In this document: positions 2,011-19,684 of the stretch, piece by piece | Position numbering within the stretch: position 1 is the first letter of the stretch | Layout of the letters: every line of letters begins with the position of its first letter | DNA from: Prochlorococcus sp. AG-432-D11 | GTDB taxonomy: Bacteria; Cyanobacteriota; Cyanobacteriia; PCC-6307; Cyanobiaceae | DNA: 49,281 nucleotides | NCBI GenBank assembly: GCA_003212885.1 | Contig: QCOP01000005.1 | Span: forward strand, 1 to 49,281 | Direction: 5' to 3' | Position numbers and translations under genes: made by a program | Notes under the pieces: generated by a model | Told to the model about the DNA's origin: nothing | What the model saw: the letters and a program-made list of their open reading frames with translations, nothing else | Databases searched by the model: none

Positions 2011-3624
2011 ATGGATGATAATTTAAGCTCAGAAGAAATTCTTAATTCACAAAGGAAGACAGGCACTCTCGCAATTGATTTGGGGAATTGCACAACTATT
2101 GTGGCATTCCAAGATGAACTTAATAGAAACATCGAATTATTAGATCTTTCACCAATCAGCAGAATCCCTGGTGAAGTTCCTAGTCTTGTATGGCAAAATC
2201 CAAAGTTGAATGGCTCTTTTCTATTTGGTCAAGAAATACAAGTATTAACATCAGATCTCAAGCGAAGCCCTTATCTATCAAGTGATTTCAAGAGATGGAT
2301 AGGGTCACAGAAAAAGCAGAATTTAAACGATGAAAAAATTTCTGCTGAGAAAGCAGGGGAGCTATTAATCAAAAAGATTTGGGATCTTATTCCAGATATT
2401 TATGAGATAAAAAGACTAGTCATTACTGCTCCAATAGAAACATATAAGCCATACAGAAAATGGTTGTATGAGATTTTTGGAAATTTCAATGTTAATGAGA
2501 TTGCCCTTGTAGATGAACCTACTGCTGCAGCTATAGGTGCTGGAGAAAATGGAGGAGCGAAATTACTAGTTGTTGATATTGGAGGTAGCACTATTGATAT
2601 GTCAATGGTTCAAATTGAAGGAGGAGAAGGGAAAGCAGAACCTATTGCTCAACTTATGCGATTCAATGGAAAAGATCTTGAATATGAAACTAAACAAGTT
2701 TTTAGAGGAGCAAAAGTACTTGGCAAAGCTGGTCTGAGATTAGGAGGAAAAGATTTAGATAAATGGATATTAAATTTCTTGCATCCAGATCTTGATTCAA
2801 ATGATGATTTGCTTTTTGCATGCGAAAAGCTGAAATGCAAATTAAGTTCAGAAGATATATCTGATTCAACATCACTGACTGAAAAGATTACTCTTGTTGA
2901 AACTGATGAAATTATTACATTAAGACTAAATAGAGAAACCTTTGAAGAACTTCTTTGTCAAAGAGGTTTGATTAAAAGTTTAAAATCAGTTTTGGAAAAA
3001 ACTTTATCACGTGGTAGAGCAAGTGGTGTTGAACTTAGAGAATTATCAGGGGTAATAATTGTAGGAGGAGGATCTAGAATTCCTCTTATACGAAGATGGA
3101 TTCAGAAAGAAATTTCTCCAGTTCCTTTACTAACTCCTCCCCCAATTGAAGCTGTAGCAGTTGGTGCATTAAAACTAACTCCAGGGACTATCATTAAAGA
3201 TATTCTTCACAAAGGTATATCTATTCAATGCTGGGACCCAAGAAGCCTAAAACATATTTGGCATCCTATCTTTTTAGCAGGACAACATTGGCCAACAACA
3301 AAACCCTTCGAAATTATTCTTGGAGCCAACCAGATTAAACAAAGAGCAATTGAATTAAAATTTGCTCTAATTGAACAAGAACTTAATCATGAAATAATTT
3401 ACACTAATGGAATTCCAACTATCCAAGATAGTTGCTCAGAATTAAAGATTGAGGAGTTTAATAACAATTATGTCACAATTAATCTAGATCCAAATGGTAT
3501 GCCTGGTGAAGATTGTTTAAAATTAATGTTTACAATCGCAGAGGATGGGACATTATTTGTAGAAGGCATAGATCTAAGGACAAATAAACATATTTCTCAA
3601 ATAACTTTAGGTTATATCAATTAG
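2011..3624 (+). CDS. Hsp70-like actin-fold ATPase (DnaK paralogue)
   Basis: A 537-residue member of the Hsp70/DnaK superfamily, shorter than true DnaK (about 630-640). The nucleotide-binding domain is residues 1 to about 375, with phosphate-1 IDLGNCTT (22-29), LVDEPTAAAIGAG (167-179), phosphate-2 VVDIGGSTID (187-196) and adenosine motif IIVGGGSRIP near 350. The C-terminal part of about 160 residues is beta-rich and lacks the alpha-helical lid and C-terminal tail of DnaK. The ATG at 2011 was chosen; the frame is open to a TTG at 1984, nine codons earlier. It is divergent from rpoZ and convergent with pyrR. A specialised chaperone or actin-like ATPase; substrate unknown. Confidence 0.8.
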   Translation: MDDNLSSEEILNSQRKTGTLAIDLGNCTTIVAFQDELNRNIELLDLSPISRIPGEVPSLVWQNPKLNGSFLFGQEIQVLTSDLKRSPYLSSDFKRWIGSQKKQNLNDEKISAEKAGELLIKKIWDLIPDIYEIKRLVITAPIETYKPYRKWLYEIFGNFNVNEIALVDEPTAAAIGAGENGGAKLLVVDIGGSTIDMSMVQIEGGEGKAEPIAQLMRFNGKDLEYETKQVFRGAKVLGKAGLRLGGKDLDKWILNFLHPDLDSNDDLLFACEKLKCKLSSEDISDSTSLTEKITLVETDEIITLRLNRETFEELLCQRGLIKSLKSVLEKTLSRGRASGVELRELSGVIIVGGGSRIPLIRRWIQKEISPVPLLTPPPIEAVAVGALKLTPGTIIKDILHKGISIQCWDPRSLKHIWHPIFLAGQHWPTTKPFEIILGANQIKQRAIELKFALIEQELNHEIIYTNGIPTIQDSCSELKIEEFNNNYVTINLDPNGMPGEDCLKLMFTIAEDGTLFVEGIDLRTNKHISQITLGYIN

Positions 3625-4369: not shown

Positions 4370-5992
4370 ATGTCGAGCATCAGTTCCCTAAATCCAAGCT
4401 TTAAAAATCAAGTTGCTCCAGTTGTTCTGGCCATACTTGATGGATGGGGGCATAGAGAAGAATCTAATGACAATGCAATAAAACAAGCCAACACTCCAGT
4501 AATGGATTCTTTATGGAAGGCCTATCCACATACTCTGATTCAAGCAAGTGGGGCGGATGTTGGTCTGCCTGATGAACAGATGGGGAATTCTGAAGTCGGA
4601 CACTTAACTATTGGAGCTGGTCGAATTATTCAACAGGAATTAGTCAGGATAACTAATGTGGTAAAGCAAAAAAAACTGAATTCAATCCCAACATTTTCAA
4701 ATCTATCAACGAGTATTCAAGAAAGTAGCAACACTCTACATATTCTCGGACTCTGCTCTGATGGAGGAGTTCATAGTCACATCAATCATCTTTTAGGTCT
4801 TATTGATTGGGCTGCAGAACAAAAAATCAAAAATATTGCGATACATGCTTTCACTGATGGGAGAGACACTCCTGCAAAGAGTGCCTTGAAATTCTTAGAA
4901 ATAATTGATAATAAATTAAAATCTACTGGAAATGGTGAAATTGCAAGCCTCTGTGGCAGATATTGGGCTATGGATAGAGATAACCGTTGGGAAAGAATAT
5001 CTAAGGCCCATAATCTACTTACAAACCCTGATGTACCTATCAACAAATCATCGATCAAAGAGATTATAGAAAACAGTTATAAAAGTGGGATAACTGACGA
5101 ATTTATAGAACCTACAAGACTAAGCAAAACCTTTTTAAAAGATGGTGATGAACTCATAATGTTTAACTTTAGGCCAGATAGAGCCAGGCAATTAATTCAA
5201 TCACTAACCCTTGATAACTTTAATGAATTTGAACGCAATCAACATCCAAACATTAAAGGAGTGACCTTTACCCAATACGAAGCAAATTTACCTGTCTCTA
5301 TAGCTTTCCCACCAGAATCATTAGATAATTTGCTTGGGCAAGTAGTTTCCGATAATGGGCTTAAGCAATATCGGACCGCGGAAACTGAGAAGTATCCTCA
5401 TGTAACCTATTTCCTTAATGGAGGAATAGAAAAACCTTTAAAAGGAGAAGATAGACATCTTGTGCCTTCTCCAAGAGTGGCAACATATGATCTTTCACCA
5501 CAAATGTCTGCAGATCAATTAACCAATAGTTGCGTCAAAGCCATTGAGAGTGGAGTCTACTCATTAATAGTTATAAATTACGCAAATCCAGACATGGTTG
5601 GCCATACAGGCGTTTTAGAAGCCGCTCAGGAGGCTATTACAAAAGTTGATTGTTGTGTTGGAAAAATTCTTGAGGCAACTGGCAAAATGAGTGGAACATT
5701 ATTGATCACAGCAGATCATGGGAATGCGGAAGTAATGAAAGGTTCAGATGGGCAACCATGGACAGCTCATACAACAAATCCTGTTCCAGTCATTTTGATT
5801 GAAGGAGAAAAACGTCAAGTATCGGGTCTAGGTAACTCAATTCAGTTAAGAAATGATGGTGGGCTAGCAGATATTGCACCAACAATCCTTCAACTGTTAT
5901 CCCTACCGAAACCTGATGCAATGACGGGTAAGTCTTTGATAGAAAATATCAACGCTCTTACAATAAAATCTCGAATACCACAACCAGCTTAA
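4370..5992 (+). CDS. gpmI: 2,3-bisphosphoglycerate-independent phosphoglycerate mutase
   Basis: A 540-residue Mn-dependent mutase that interconverts 3- and 2-phosphoglycerate in glycolysis. It has the alkaline-phosphatase-like metal site: [10 protein letters not shown] near residues 19-28 with metal ligand Asp24, the phosphoserine motif MGNSEVGH with Ser74, and the C-terminal TADHGNAE followed by [11 protein letters not shown]. The inserted phosphotransferase domain carries [10 protein letters not shown] and [14 protein letters not shown]. Full length. It is followed after 12 bases by secG, probably in one operon, as often seen in cyanobacteria. Starts at ATG 4370. Confidence 0.97.
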
Positions 5993-6004
5993 AATCAAAA
6001 AATC

Positions 6005-6238
6005 ATGTTAATTTCTATTCTCTCTTGGGTTTGGGTATCTTCAGGAATTCTTCTAGTGCTTTTAATCCTTCTCCATAGCCCCAAAGGAGATGGAATGGGA
6101 GGAATTGCAGCAAGTGGTAGTTCAATGTTTTCTAGCGCAAGTAGTGCAGAAGCAACCCTAAACAAAGCAACATGGACCTGTTTAAGTATTTTTCTAGGTT
6201 TAGCAATTATTCTCAGTGCGGGATGGTTAGACACCTGA
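6005..6238 (+). CDS. secG: Preprotein translocase subunit SecG
   Basis: A 77-residue inner-membrane subunit of the SecYEG translocon. Two hydrophobic helices are evident, about residues 4-24 and 57-74, joined by a Gly/Ser-rich cytoplasmic loop with the typical SPKGDGMGG and a small-residue SSMFSSASSAEATLNK segment. Its position 12 bases after gpmI suggests co-transcription. Length is normal for cyanobacterial SecG. Confidence 0.9.
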   Translation: MLISILSWVWVSSGILLVLLILLHSPKGDGMGGIAASGSSMFSSASSAEATLNKATWTCLSIFLGLAIILSAGWLDT

Positions 6239-6718: not shown

Positions 6719-6752
6719 AAAAAAAGGACAGAGTAAAACTCTGTCCTTTTTT
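6719..6752 (-). terminator. Bidirectional intrinsic terminator after groEL
   Basis: Stem GGACAGAG (6726-6733) / CTCTGTCC (6739-6746) with loop TAAAA, flanked by a run of A on the left and T on the right, so a U-tract forms in either direction. It sits 32 bases beyond the groEL stop and also faces the small secreted protein gene on the plus strand. Confidence 0.9.
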
Positions 6753-10561: not shown

Positions 10562-10963
10562 ATGTCCCTAACACTCCGAGTATTAGCCCCAGATCAAAGT
10601 GTATTTGACGGGTCTGCTGATGAAGTCATACTTCCAAGTACCTCAGGTCTACTTGGAATACTTCCAGGACATATTTCTATGGTTACAGCTATAGACACTG
10701 GTGTTTTAAGAGTACGAAATGATGGCAATTGGAATTCAATTGCATTGATGGGTGGTTTTGCAGAAGTTGAGTCAAATGAAGTAACCGTTCTTGTAAATGC
10801 TGCAGAATTGGGGGGGGAAATTGATATAAGTTCTGCTGAAAAGGCATTTGAAGAAGCTCAATCAATGCTTCTTCAATTAGATAGCAATGAAAATTCAACT
10901 GAAAAAATTAAAGCAAAAGAAAACCTAAACAGAGCGCGAGCAAGACTACAAGCAACTAAATAA
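10562..10963 (+). CDS. atpC: ATP synthase F1 subunit epsilon
   Basis: A 133-residue epsilon subunit, which couples the rotor to F1 and regulates ATPase activity. The N-terminal beta sandwich (about 1-85) includes DQSVFDGSADEVILPS and GLLGILPGHI; the C-terminal helical hairpin (about 88-133) has the typical ENLNRARARLQ. It follows atpD by 85 bases and is ended directly by a terminator hairpin. Confidence 0.96.
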   Translation: MSLTLRVLAPDQSVFDGSADEVILPSTSGLLGILPGHISMVTAIDTGVLRVRNDGNWNSIALMGGFAEVESNEVTVLVNAAELGGEIDISSAEKAFEEAQSMLLQLDSNENSTEKIKAKENLNRARARLQATK

Positions 10964-10999
10964 AAAAAAAGACCTAATTAACATTAGGTCTTTTTTTTT
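10962..10999. terminator. Bidirectional terminator between atpC and PSRP-3 gene
   Basis: Stem GACCTAAT (10971-10978) / ATTAGGTC (10983-10990), loop TAAC, with nine A before and nine T after, so it can end transcription from both converging genes. It begins at the atpC stop codon. Confidence 0.93.
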
Positions 11000-11036
11000 A
11001 TTGTACTAATGTTCCTAGACTCAAAATTTTGAGATA

Positions 11037-14769: not shown

Positions 14770-16085
14770 GTCAAAGTCAAGCATGTTTAGATTCTTGTGA
14801 ATACCTTCTTTCAAAATGGAGGGGAAAGCTTAATTTAACTAACAAAGAAAGAGGATTATTAGCTGAAGAAATCACAACTTTTGACAATCAACTAGAAAGG
14901 CTATCGAATAGAGAATTTAACATCGCCGTTTTTGGTCGTGTAGGAGTTGGGAAATCAAGTTTACTCAATGCATTAATCGGTCAAAAAGTGTTTCATACTG
15001 ATATAGCCCATGGATCTACGAAAAATACTCAAAAAGTCTTATGGGAAAAGCCATTAAAAACAATAAATTCAATACAACTTATTGACACTCCAGGAATTGA
15101 CGAAATAGCTGGAAAAGGGAAAAAGCAGTTGGCATCGAATGTAGCCTTTCTTTCAGACTTAATTCTCTTGGTTCTAGATTCTGATATTTCAAGACTAGAA
15201 CTCGAAGCTTTAGAAAATCTTCTTCGCAAAAATAAACCTATTATCTTAGTTCTTAATCGAAGTGATCAGTGGTCCTTCAAGCAACGGATGGAACTAATCG
15301 CCAAAATTAAAAATCGCCTGCCTAAAAAAAACCAAAATATTATCATCGAAGTTGCAGCTTCTGCGCCAAGGGAACCTCACCTATTACCTGATGGAAGGAT
15401 CCGTAGTGAAATACGTCCCCCTGAAATCAATCAATTATTAGCAACACTTTCTGACATCATTGACAACCAAGGTAGAACTTTATTAGCACTAAATTCTCTT
15501 AACCAAGCTGATTATTTATTCCAGTCATTATCAAAAAAGCGATTAACTCACAAAAAAAAAGTTGCACAAGCCTTGATTGGCAAATTTGCAACTATAAAAG
15601 CCTCTGGTGTGGCAATTAATCCACTATTAGTTTTTGATTTTGCTGCAGGACTTACTCTTGATACTGCTTTGATCATACAGCTAGCAAAATTATATGGTTT
15701 GGAACTAAGAGGGCATTCAGCTAGAGAAATTCTCAAAACTATATCTTTACACAATTCGTGGCTTGGAGGTGCACAAATTGGAATAAATTTTTTTCTAGGT
15801 GCTCTACAACATCTTCTCCTCATTGCAAGTCCTTTTACAGGAGGTGTCACTCTTGCTCCAGCAGGACCTGTAGCCTTAGTACAAGCAGTTCTAGCAGTTC
15901 ATACTACCCAAATCACTGGACGTCTTGCTGCTCAAACTTTTCTAAATGGCAGTTCAATTAGAGGAACTCAACCTAAGTTATTTCTCGAATATCTTTTAAA
16001 AAAAGATCCTCAATTGAGAAAATGGATTGACAACTATTCCACCCAAATCCATCGAACAGACTCAACCCACACATTCTTGCCATGA
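14766..16085 (+). CDS. GTPase with C-terminal DUF697-like membrane domain
   Basis: A 439-residue predicted GTPase of the Era/YcjF-like group. G1 is GRVGVGKSS (57-65), G3 is IDTPGIDE near 113-120 and G4 is LNRSD near 168-172. The C-terminal half (about 285-400) contains Gly/Ala-rich hydrophobic segments such as PLLVFDFAAGLTLD and GVTLAPAGPVALVQAVLAV, consistent with a DUF697-type membrane-associated domain. It overlaps the upstream CNNM gene and the downstream nadD by ATGA, so it is translationally coupled to both. Exact function unknown; related plant and cyanobacterial proteins are membrane GTPases. Confidence 0.85.
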   Translation: MSQSQACLDSCEYLLSKWRGKLNLTNKERGLLAEEITTFDNQLERLSNREFNIAVFGRVGVGKSSLLNALIGQKVFHTDIAHGSTKNTQKVLWEKPLKTINSIQLIDTPGIDEIAGKGKKQLASNVAFLSDLILLVLDSDISRLELEALENLLRKNKPIILVLNRSDQWSFKQRMELIAKIKNRLPKKNQNIIIEVAASAPREPHLLPDGRIRSEIRPPEINQLLATLSDIIDNQGRTLLALNSLNQADYLFQSLSKKRLTHKKKVAQALIGKFATIKASGVAINPLLVFDFAAGLTLDTALIIQLAKLYGLELRGHSAREILKTISLHNSWLGGAQIGINFFLGALQHLLLIASPFTGGVTLAPAGPVALVQAVLAVHTTQITGRLAAQTFLNGSSIRGTQPKLFLEYLLKKDPQLRKWIDNYSTQIHRTDSTHTFLP

Positions 16086-16669
16086 ATATAAAAAATAATT
16101 GCATTGCACTTTTTGGTACAAGTGCCGATCCACCTACCTTTGGTCATAAAGCTCTATTGGAAGAGCTCAGTAAAATATTTCCTCTAGTTATCACCTGGGC
16201 AAGTGATAATCCCCTCAAAAAACATGTCGCCTCTCTCGAAATTCGATATAAGCTTCTGGATGCTTTAATCAAAGATATTGGAATATCAACAATACAAATA
16301 GATCAAACTATTAGCTCCCCAAGAACGATTTTGACTGTCCAAAAAGCAAGAGAAAATTGGCCAGAAGCAGATTTAATTTTCATCATTGGAAGTGATTTAA
16401 TTCAACAAATGCTAAGTTGGGAAAATATCAACAATCTCTTTGGCCAGATAAAGTTTGGAGTTGCACCACGTGAAGGATGGTCGATAGAACCAGAAACCAT
16501 AAATCAACTTACGAGCATGGGCGCAAAAATTCAAATATTACCGCTAAAAATTCCCCAAAGTTCCAGTTCAATACTTCGAGACAAACCTATTGTAGCCAAA
16601 ATTCCTCAAGTTCTCTTGCCATTAATTCTCGAACAAAATCTCTATGGAATAACAAACTTAAAATCATGA
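16082..16669 (+). CDS. nadD: Nicotinate-nucleotide adenylyltransferase
   Basis: A 195-residue nucleotidyltransferase making nicotinate adenine dinucleotide from NaMN and ATP, the penultimate step of NAD synthesis. The dinucleotide-binding motif is ALFGTSADPPTFGHKALL near residues 9-26, and the family segment LIFIIGSDLIQQM is present. The C-terminal ISSTR-type motif appears as SSSILRD. It overlaps the GTPase gene upstream and nadE downstream, each by ATGA, so the last two steps of NAD synthesis are made from coupled genes. Confidence 0.92.
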   Translation: MNIKNNCIALFGTSADPPTFGHKALLEELSKIFPLVITWASDNPLKKHVASLEIRYKLLDALIKDIGISTIQIDQTISSPRTILTVQKARENWPEADLIFIIGSDLIQQMLSWENINNLFGQIKFGVAPREGWSIEPETINQLTSMGAKIQILPLKIPQSSSSILRDKPIVAKIPQVLLPLILEQNLYGITNLKS

Positions 16670-18369
16670 AAATAGCACTTGCACAATTAAATCCTGTAAT
16701 TGGAGATCTTGAGAATAACTCAAAAAAAATAGTAGATGCCTGTTATGAAGCCAATAATCATGATTCTGATCTTGTTATTACTTCTGAGTTGTCACTATGG
16801 GGTTACCCACCAAAAGATTTACTATTAAATCCCTATATGCTTAATCAACAGACAACGATACTAAATAATATTGTTAAAATAATTGCAAACAAAATGCCTA
16901 GAATAAACTTATTAATTGGAATCGCTGAGCAAACTCCAGACAAGCAATTACCTAACTTATTTAATTCAATTGTACTTGCAAATAAAAATTCTTGGTTGGT
17001 GATTGCACGGAAACAATTATTACCTTCTTATGATGTGTTCGATGAAAACAGATATTTCCGAAAAGGTAAAAGTACTAGTATTTTTGAGCTAACTAAAGAC
17101 AATCATCTATTTAAAATAGGTATTTGCATATGCGAAGACCTCTGGGTTGAAGAAGACATCATAGGGAATAGAGTAATAGGTGTAGATCCTCTCAAGACTC
17201 TAGAAAATAAAAAGCTTGATTTATTATTGAACCTCTCTGCCTCTCCCTTTGCTCTAAACAAACAATCTTTACGAAAGCAATTAGCTCAAAAAGCAGCTAA
17301 AAGACTGTCATGTCCGGTTATATACCTCAATCAAGTAGGTGCCAATGATGAGTTGATTTTTGATGGGGCCAGTTTTGTCACAGACCATAAAGGAAATATC
17401 TTATCAAAATTACCTTCCTGTAAAGAAGAAGTAGTGATATGGGATAGCAAACAAACTACAAAAACATACCTTCAGAAAGCATCACATATTGAAGAAGTTT
17501 TACTAAGAGCACTCACACTTGGCCTCAAAGATTATGCAAATAAATGCGGTTTCAAAAAAGTCCTCATTGGCCTGAGTGGCGGCATCGACTCAGCACTAGT
17601 TACTATTATTGCTACCGCAGCAATGGGTCCTGAAAACGTTCAAGCAATCCTAATGCCTTCTCCATGGAATTCTAAAAACTCATTGACCGATGCATTGGAA
17701 CTATCAAAACGTCTTTCGATAAGAACAAAGACTATGCCAATCACTTCTATGATGGAAAGCTTTGAAAAAACTTTAAGTGACAACCTTCAGGAAACTCTTA
17801 AAAATATAACTTTAGAAAATCTTCAACCAAGAATTCGAGGAACCCTTTTAATGGCAATAGCTAATCAATCCAATAAATTACTACTTGCAACTGGAAATAA
17901 ATCTGAAATAGCTGTAGGTTATTGCACATTATATGGAGATATGAATGGCGCTCTTGCCGTTATTGGTGATTTATATAAATCAAAAATATATGAATTGTCA
18001 AACTGGCTTGATTCAAACGAATCAAGCCAGTTTCGTCAATCATTCTCTCTCCCCCTAGAAATAGAAATTATTGGTACTTCAATTCGGGAAAAACCACCCA
18101 GCGCTGAACTAAAGCCTGGTCAACAAGATACTGATGTACTCCCACCATATGAAATACTTGATCCCCTTCTAAAAGATCTTATTGAGCATAGACTAAGTTC
18201 ATTAGAACTAATGAAGAACGGATATACCTTAGAACAAATCAAGCATATCCAAAAACTGATTAAACAATCAGAGTTTAAAAGATATCAAGCACCACCAATC
18301 TTGAAAGTCAGCAACCATGCATTTGGGAACGGATGGAGAATGCCCATAGCTTCGCGCTACAATATATAA
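16666..18369 (+). CDS. nadE: Glutamine-dependent NAD+ synthetase
   Basis: A 567-residue two-domain enzyme amidating nicotinate adenine dinucleotide to NAD+. The N-terminal nitrilase-like glutaminase domain (about 1-260) has catalytic Glu41 in SELSLWGYPPKD and the cysteine in GICICEDLW. The synthetase domain has the PP-loop GLSGGIDSALV near 300 and REKPPSAELKPGQ near 480. The start is ATG 16666, overlapping the nadD stop (ATGA); the frame is open further upstream inside nadD but without family similarity. A perfect 15-bp inverted repeat lies in the coding sequence at 18000-18033, in a variable segment before the PSAEL motif. Confidence 0.95.
   Translation: MKIALAQLNPVIGDLENNSKKIVDACYEANNHDSDLVITSELSLWGYPPKDLLLNPYMLNQQTTILNNIVKIIANKMPRINLLIGIAEQTPDKQLPNLFNSIVLANKNSWLVIARKQLLPSYDVFDENRYFRKGKSTSIFELTKDNHLFKIGICICEDLWVEEDIIGNRVIGVDPLKTLENKKLDLLLNLSASPFALNKQSLRKQLAQKAAKRLSCPVIYLNQVGANDELIFDGASFVTDHKGNILSKLPSCKEEVVIWDSKQTTKTYLQKASHIEEVLLRALTLGLKDYANKCGFKKVLIGLSGGIDSALVTIIATAAMGPENVQAILMPSPWNSKNSLTDALELSKRLSIRTKTMPITSMMESFEKTLSDNLQETLKNITLENLQPRIRGTLLMAIANQSNKLLLATGNKSEIAVGYCTLYGDMNGALAVIGDLYKSKIYELSNWLDSNESSQFRQSFSLPLEIEIIGTSIREKPPSAELKPGQQDTDVLPPYEILDPLLKDLIEHRLSSLELMKNGYTLEQIKHIQKLIKQSEFKRYQAPPILKVSNHAFGNGWRMPIASRYNI
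18000..18033 (+). repeat. Perfect hairpin inside nadE
   Basis: AAACTGGCTTGATTC (18000-18014), loop AAAC, then the exact complement GAATCAAGCCAGTTT (18019-18033). It is in frame and encodes SNWLDSNESSQF, between two conserved blocks of the synthetase domain. No T-run follows, so it is not a standard terminator. Confidence 0.9.
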
Positions 18370-18595
18370 CCATTAAATACTCCTCCAATAATTTCATTAT
18401 AAGTATCTTCATTCTCTTATATATTTTTTGAATTTATTTTTCTTACTTGAAATGACAAAAAAATAAACAGCAAGAAGAAAAATATGAAAAAATAACATAT
18501 TAAAAATGACAAGTATCTAGGCCAGATATGATTTAAATCATAAAATAAGTCAAGTCATAAAAGCCAATAGAAAAAAATTATTTCTTATATTTTAT

Positions 18596-19684
18596 TTATT
18601 CCAATCGAGAAATTGGCCTCAATAAAGAGTCAACAAGAATTCCTTCTTTCAGAGCCATTACAACACCGGCAGCTTCAATATAATTAGAAACTTTATACAC
18701 TTCTACTTCACTTTTAGGAATACCATCAAGTCCTAACGAGTCCAATTCAACATTTAATACTGTTGAATTACCTACTAAAATAATAGGGATTTTTCTTTCA
18801 ATGCAGGCTAATATACATTCACCGCCTATAGAGGTCTGAGGTGCAATAACTGCACCAACGTCATCAATCTTCAAAATATTTCCACATGATCTACTTGATT
18901 GACTAGAAATATTTGAAGGCAACAATTCTGGGGCTTGACTTAAACCCACTAAAACAGATGGCAAGAATGTAAAGCCTATTTCTTCTGAAGCTGCTCTGGG
19001 ATCAATACTTGAATCAAGAGGTAATGGCAACATTGCGGGAGAATGTGCGCATGGAATTCCAAGATGCTTAACAAGCAAATGACTTATAACAGCTTCACCT
19101 CCCGATAAAATATCTACACCAGAACCTTGTCTATATTCATCCACATCTTGATTGCTGACCTCATCAGGGAATCTAGTTACAATAGCTATTGCTCCAACTC
19201 CAGCTCGTTTTAGTGCTTCCCCTGCTCTCAAAAGAGAATCAGGATTAGCTAATCCACCCCAACTTGCACCACTAGACCTCTTCTCCAAAGATATATTCAA
19301 GACGGTGTCAGTAACAATTATTGGACCTATATCTAAACCCAGAGAAGCCCTACAAGCATTGGCTACGTTTAAATGGTGCTGCTTTAAAGTATCAGTTAAA
19401 CCCTTGTCTATGAGCAATCCAACTTTTTGCTTTCTGACACACTTCAAGTAAATTTCACCTTTTGCAAAGCTATTCATTGCGAAGCCTTCTACATAATGAA
19501 TATGCTCATCCCTCCAATACAAAGAGGCAGCGTTCATTACATTTGGATGAGTGATCAAACAACCACTGGCACTAGCTATTAACCTCGATACTGGGATCGC
19601 ATCTCCTCCATATCCACCAACTTCACAACCAATGCCTGTTGGAATGATTAAAATTGTAGGGAAAGAGCCAGAAGAAATAGACAA
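18596..19684 (-). CDS. DUF3326 family protein
   Basis: A 362-residue protein of the DUF3326 family, found in cyanobacteria and plants, function unknown. Typical segments are ILIIPTGIGCEVGGYGGDA, ASGCLITHPNVMNAASLYW and GVGAIAIVTRFPDE; the composition suggests a soluble enzyme with a nucleotide-binding-like fold. There is no ATG; TTG 19684 gives the family N-terminus, and no ATG/GTG occurs upstream in frame. It lies 14 bases after a small unknown gene which itself lies 14 bases after atpG, so it may be read through from the ATP synthase operon. Role unassigned. Confidence 0.82.
   Translation of the reverse strand: MSISSGSFPTILIIPTGIGCEVGGYGGDAIPVSRLIASASGCLITHPNVMNAASLYWRDEHIHYVEGFAMNSFAKGEIYLKCVRKQKVGLLIDKGLTDTLKQHHLNVANACRASLGLDIGPIIVTDTVLNISLEKRSSGASWGGLANPDSLLRAGEALKRAGVGAIAIVTRFPDEVSNQDVDEYRQGSGVDILSGGEAVISHLLVKHLGIPCAHSPAMLPLPLDSSIDPRAASEEIGFTFLPSVLVGLSQAPELLPSNISSQSSRSCGNILKIDDVGAVIAPQTSIGGECILACIERKIPIILVGNSTVLNVELDSLGLDGIPKSEVEVYKVSNYIEAAGVVMALKEGILVDSLLRPISRLE

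Follow-up and report, generated by a model that had tools for sequence, protein, structure and literature searches.

A perfect 15-bp coding hairpin in a picocyanobacterial nadE gene, a probable template-switch scar

The nadE gene of the source genome contained an exact hairpin, which was most probably a mutational scar of template switching (quasipalindrome correction) and not a regulatory device. The hairpin fits a template switch because it was exact and in frame, was accompanied by no insertion or deletion, had one arm more conserved than the other, and showed pairing that was unconserved. It was a real but ordinary feature, probably one of several such scars in the family. The mechanism is already known; what the hairpin adds to it is modest and concerns the frequency of such stems in the genes of this family. 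The window, that is, the whole stretch of DNA analysed, comprised 49,281 nucleotides (bases 1–49281 of contig 5) of a genome of 981 kb, in 57 contigs and 54% complete.

The perfect 15-bp stem and its 4-base loop (AAACTGGCTTGATTC-AAAC-GAATCAAGCCAGTTT; 15 of 15 pairs) occupied positions 18000–18033 and lay in frame within nadE, exactly as the preliminary description had reported (Table 1). The hairpin-bearing frame was matched by the NAD+ synthase model NF010588 of NCBIfam (score 635.9 bits; cut-off 479) and by the NAD+ synthase family PF02540 of Pfam, and its best named matches were from Prochlorococcus and Synechococcus. The start of nadE overlapped the 3' end of an upstream frame (16082–16669) by 7 bases. 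This frame was nadD-like as judged by reading its translation, so that two NAD-synthesis genes would be coupled.

Table 1. Positions of the nadE hairpin elements in the window and of the genes with xseA stems in two other family genomes
Feature	Position	Strand	Basis or remark
nadE, NAD+ synthase, 568 aa	16663..18369, stop within coordinates	+	open frame and profile matches
Left arm, AAACTGGCTTGATTC	18000..18014	+	spans conserved WLDS core, residues 448–451; putative template
Loop, AAAC	18015..18018	+	read from sequence
Right arm, GAATCAAGCCAGTTT	18019..18033	+	encodes ESSQF within a variable region; matches the reverse complement of the left arm exactly; putative switch product
xseA stem locus L267 (G003)	gene 2216–3220	minus	coding-stem survey
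xseA stem locus L271 (G057)	gene 16438–17592	minus	coding-stem survey

Long perfect stems were rare in the coding DNA of the source genome. The gene survey drew on 762 kb of the genome, in which 529 frames of at least 150 aa made up 578 kb, and perfect stems of at least 15 bp with loops of 3–10 were counted. Two were found, the 15-bp stem of nadE and a 16-bp stem of mraY, whereas synonymous and codon shuffling, at 100 rounds apiece, averaged 0.06 and 0.01, respectively; a second synonymous-shuffle run of 40 rounds gave an expectation of 0.05. When mismatches were admitted into 15-bp stems (loop 3–10, innermost three pairs intact), the genome's own genes held 2, 0, 14, 68, and 390 stems with 0, 1, 2, 3, and 4 mismatches, respectively, against 0.05, 0.97, 7.6, 55, and 310 by synonymous shuffle. 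The perfect class exceeded its expectation while the one-mismatch class was empty, in both cases with small numbers. Stems of at least 10 bp showed a moderate surplus in the same genes, numbering 25, compared with 14 mirror repeats, which served as a control, and 10.2 by synonymous shuffle. In a survey of open frames from stop to stop, an AT repeat in the family genome G038 was counted many times, and a 14-bp stem was recorded in an open frame of L158, not within a called gene.

A protein segment that permits a palindrome could have acquired the stem by a chance choice of codons. The amino acids do go far towards the stem: among sampled synonymous versions of residues 446–457, drawn with the codon use of the genome, all 15 pairs formed in 0.07%, and 9–10 of the 15 pairs were the commonest outcome. 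However, the two stems found stand against an expectation of 0.05–0.06 in the genes examined, and the palindrome-friendly residues were peculiar to the source genome, since its relatives formed a mean of 4.8 pairs. The hairpin exceeds the chance expectation, in agreement with the rarity first claimed for it, and a coincidence of residues and codons was an unlikely origin.

The hairpin segment was compared with 109 aligned loci of relatives. A gap within residues 440–462 excluded 53 of them, 5 had identical segments, and 51 distinct loci were kept. Among the excluded loci, those with a directly visible gap at these residues lie outside the family. Averages were taken over the 47 kept loci with at least 48% identity, the other 4 being below this value. 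The 51 distinct relatives formed 2–8 of the 15 pairs, and none had a perfect stem. The mean over the 47 relatives was 4.8 of 15 pairs, near the average of 4.1 obtained for 34-mers taken anywhere in this nadE. By this alignment, the pairing of the hairpin is not conserved. The length of the segment was the same in all 51 distinct relatives, which aligned without a gap across residues 440–462 and kept the order of the flanks, so that nothing was inserted at the hairpin.

The preliminary description had also offered a captured palindromic element as an origin, for which nothing spoke beyond the palindrome itself. This reading was contradicted by the ungapped alignment, in which the source genome showed no gain in length. 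The genome search for the 15-mer, which had been proposed as a check, likewise turned out against it, since the only exact matches were the two arms. Seven near-copies were found, a single one differing at 1 position and the other six at 2. These lay on seven different contigs, so that none forms a hairpin with another. Furthermore, the coding stems listed in the survey shared no common sequence by eye, except at the same gene. A captured element was therefore barely credible.

The RNA of positions 17990–18043 was predicted to fold at −27 kcal/mol (z = −7.9), and none of 200 shuffles was as low. So strong a predicted fold would suit an mRNA hairpin under selection in this lineage, acting in pausing, stability, or co-translational folding. 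However, the hairpin was conserved in 0 of the 51 distinct relatives, and a conserved RNA signal was not supported. A terminator scan returned no terminator-like site in 16000–19000, and no T run followed the nadE stem on the 3' side when the sequence was inspected, so an attenuation or termination site was not borne out. No Rfam family matched at its gathering score in the whole window. The promoter scan of 16000–19000 gave 10 promoter-like sites, compared with 11.4 in shuffles. On the strength of the predicted fold, a lineage-specific RNA function is possible; selection for a functional mRNA hairpin was, on all of this evidence, a very improbable origin.

The two arms differed in their conservation. 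The mean identity to the 47 relatives, all of them rather distant, was 9.3 of 15 bases for the left arm and 6.3 of 15 for the right arm. The left arm covered residues 447–450 and parts of residues 446 and 451 (N-W-L-D and the adjacent serines). The sequence WLDS or WIDS was present at residues 448–451 in 42 of the 47 relatives, with a variable residue preceding the tryptophan. The ESSQF of the right arm precedes position 458, where 42 of the 47 relatives carry arginine. The placement of the hairpin in a variable segment thus held for the right arm and failed for the left, which spans the conserved core. Codon 451, which encodes a left-arm serine, was TCA in this gene and AGT or AGC in 41 of the 47 relatives, with TCA in only one. 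This relative (L036) shared the AAAC loop and the preceding GATTC, carried GATTC after the loop where GAATC stands here, and formed 8 of the 15 pairs. When the frequencies in the relatives' alignment columns were multiplied, with the columns taken as independent, the product for a right arm that pairs fully with this left arm was 7e-9.

We infer the switch itself, its direction, and its origin in a single event from these features. The polymerase would have stalled during replication of nadE at an imperfect inverted repeat, a weak one made up of the codons of D-S and the following E/D-S, and a few bases would have been copied from the nascent (or opposite) strand before the polymerase switched back. 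The reverse complement of one arm would thereby have replaced as many as about 15 bases in the other, with length and reading frame kept. The variant would then have been tolerated and fixed, and a function of the hairpin would not be required. The right arm, at tolerant positions, was the likelier product, with the left arm copied onto the right, as suggested by the alignment. The left arm may itself have changed in part, since its TCA serine codon departs from most relatives, which leaves the direction of the switch unsure.

The 8 of 15 pairs of the best relative represent a weak seed, and the mean of the relatives is near background. The precursor was not seen because the comparison set contained no close relative. 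The nearest relative found for the whole NadE protein was 60% identical, and the genus was represented by the source genome alone. The synthetase domain was matched at an E value of 1e-95 or better in 187 of 400 family genomes, the source included, and the highest identity in this domain among the other matches listed was 64%. Several nadE matches, among them those of G003, G054, and G055, carried one in-frame stop within the matched stretch, which probably marks the genuine end of a somewhat shorter protein.

The second stem of the source genome, a perfect 16-bp coding hairpin in mraY (L148:7129–7168, minus strand), looks alike in its arms. For mraY, 57 of 60 genomes were matched and 29 loci of relatives were examined. 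The right arm encoded NKNPAK, as in several relatives and near the others. The left arm encoded F-A, where the residue corresponding to the phenylalanine was tryptophan in 28 of the 29 relatives and tyrosine in one, and the next residue was mostly leucine or isoleucine. The relatives formed 4–10 of the 16 pairs. By sequence comparison, one arm appears conserved and the other is without a near-invariant tryptophan, as in a case similar to nadE.

Perfect coding hairpins were also present in other genomes of the family. The related single-contig genome G031 had perfect 15-bp coding stems in glmU, dnaE, and umuC, and two of three sister genomes had an orthologue for each gene. The sisters formed 10 and 10 of the 15 pairs in glmU, 9 and 5 in dnaE, and 8 and 7 in umuC. 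In xseA, the gene of the exonuclease VII large subunit, G003 and G057, which belong to two genera, had a perfect coding stem of 19 bp at the PV(I/V)TGIGHE stretch. A compensatory pair and the loop sequence set the two stems apart. For this gene, 49 of 61 genomes were matched and 30 loci were examined, one of them from G003. The other 29 loci formed 5–14 of the 19 pairs, the source genome being among them with 9. In addition, both G003 and G057 carried S-C at two positions, a pair of residues absent from 29 of 29 other loci. In E. coli, exonuclease VII belongs to the enzymes that keep such mutations in check, and the presumably perfected palindrome in these two genera sits in the gene for its large subunit.

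A 13-bp stem in dnaG was perfect in G031, G051, and 2 of 29 further relatives, and the other 27 formed 6–12 pairs. The pairing at this site (6–13 of 13) was largely set by a conserved protein motif, so that a protein sequence alone can bring a stem near perfection. A perfect 18-bp coding hairpin was also recorded in G031, in a 348-residue frame (L277, gene 5014–6057, minus strand); no NCBIfam model matched this frame at an E value of 1e-20.

An artefact of amplification or assembly was weighed as well, since strand-displacement amplification makes inverted chimeras and the assembly statistics of the source (981 kb, 57 contigs, 54% complete) resemble those of a single-cell or partial assembly; a single-cell origin would fit them. 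Both flanks of the nadE hairpin, however, continued with correct order, strand, and reading frame and aligned to relatives ungapped in the segment, an arrangement that would not result from one inverted chimera. A double switch in the course of amplification might have left it. The same kind of coding stem was carried by the single-contig family genomes G031, G051, G003, and G057, and near-complete family genomes also carried perfect coding hairpins where those of relatives are imperfect. These hairpins make an amplification artefact unlikely to explain the class, and for nadE an artefact was an improbable source compared with a template switch in the cell.

In start-to-stop frames of at least 150 aa, with stems of simple repeats left out, seven family genomes had 13 perfect coding stems of at least 13 bp, located at 11 distinct gene sites; synonymous shuffles of the same 1.26 Mb gave 0.58. 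G031 contributed 6 of the 13, whereas G038 had none. As a control, mirror repeats of this length were counted, and they were absent from the family genomes except for 6 in G051. In this genome the mirror repeats outnumbered the stems (2), which indicates that repeat-rich genes can inflate such counts. Outside the family, no coding stem of at least 13 bp was found in 312 kb of coding sequence, with 0.06 expected. This sample combined 100 kb from each of two class-level cyanobacteria with 200 kb of E. coli K-12. Because the outside samples were small and their G+C differs, a family-specific rate is only suggested, and the contrast is weak.

Alone, the nadE hairpin is an ordinary mutational scar. 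As a set, the cases in nadE, mraY, glmU, and dnaE suggest that core bacterial genes can have several neighbouring residues replaced through template switching. Tests built on independent substitutions would read such rewrites as bursts of adaptive change. A broader proposal would be that template switching is unusually frequent in marine picocyanobacteria, perfecting coding hairpins and replacing runs of residues, including near-invariant positions such as the tryptophan replaced by phenylalanine in mraY; this proposal is tentative and rather doubtful. With many strains sequenced, the picocyanobacteria would be well suited to measuring template switching.

The proposed event has counterparts in known systems. 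In E. coli, template switching at imperfect inverted repeats yields perfect or more perfect ones, according to the available sections of PMC7202029. The quasipalindrome mutations of thyA and lacZ described there resemble the event proposed for nadE in that an imperfect coding inverted repeat is made perfect or more perfect, but they are mutations at hotspots and in reporters, whereas the nadE event was deduced from a fixed sequence without its precursor. In Saccharomyces cerevisiae, coding DNA was rewritten by template switching with up to five neighbouring amino-acid replacements, and the homogenization of inverted-repeat arms involved, as proposed for nadE, multi-base non-synonymous changes that match the arms (available sections of PMC8604942). 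That study compared close strains and parental nodes, whereas the nearest NadE relative was as distant as given above. A perfect hairpin can also arise from one template-switch event, as could have occurred in nadE, according to the portion of PMC8794818 available; that work concerns RNA genes, whereas the nadE stem lies in a protein gene and was not kept in relatives. The available sections of PMC7202029 contained no mention of exonuclease VII, and a full-text literature search returned no paper joining Prochlorococcus, template switch, and inverted repeat.

Perfect stems were also present outside the genes of the source genome. These non-genic stems reached 20 bp, and several had terminator-like runs of A and T, as judged by reading the sequences. 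Two of the perfect stems lay in the window outside long open frames, with 20 bp at 10959–11002 and 15 bp at 6720–6752. Both had A/T runs at their ends and resembled bidirectional terminators.
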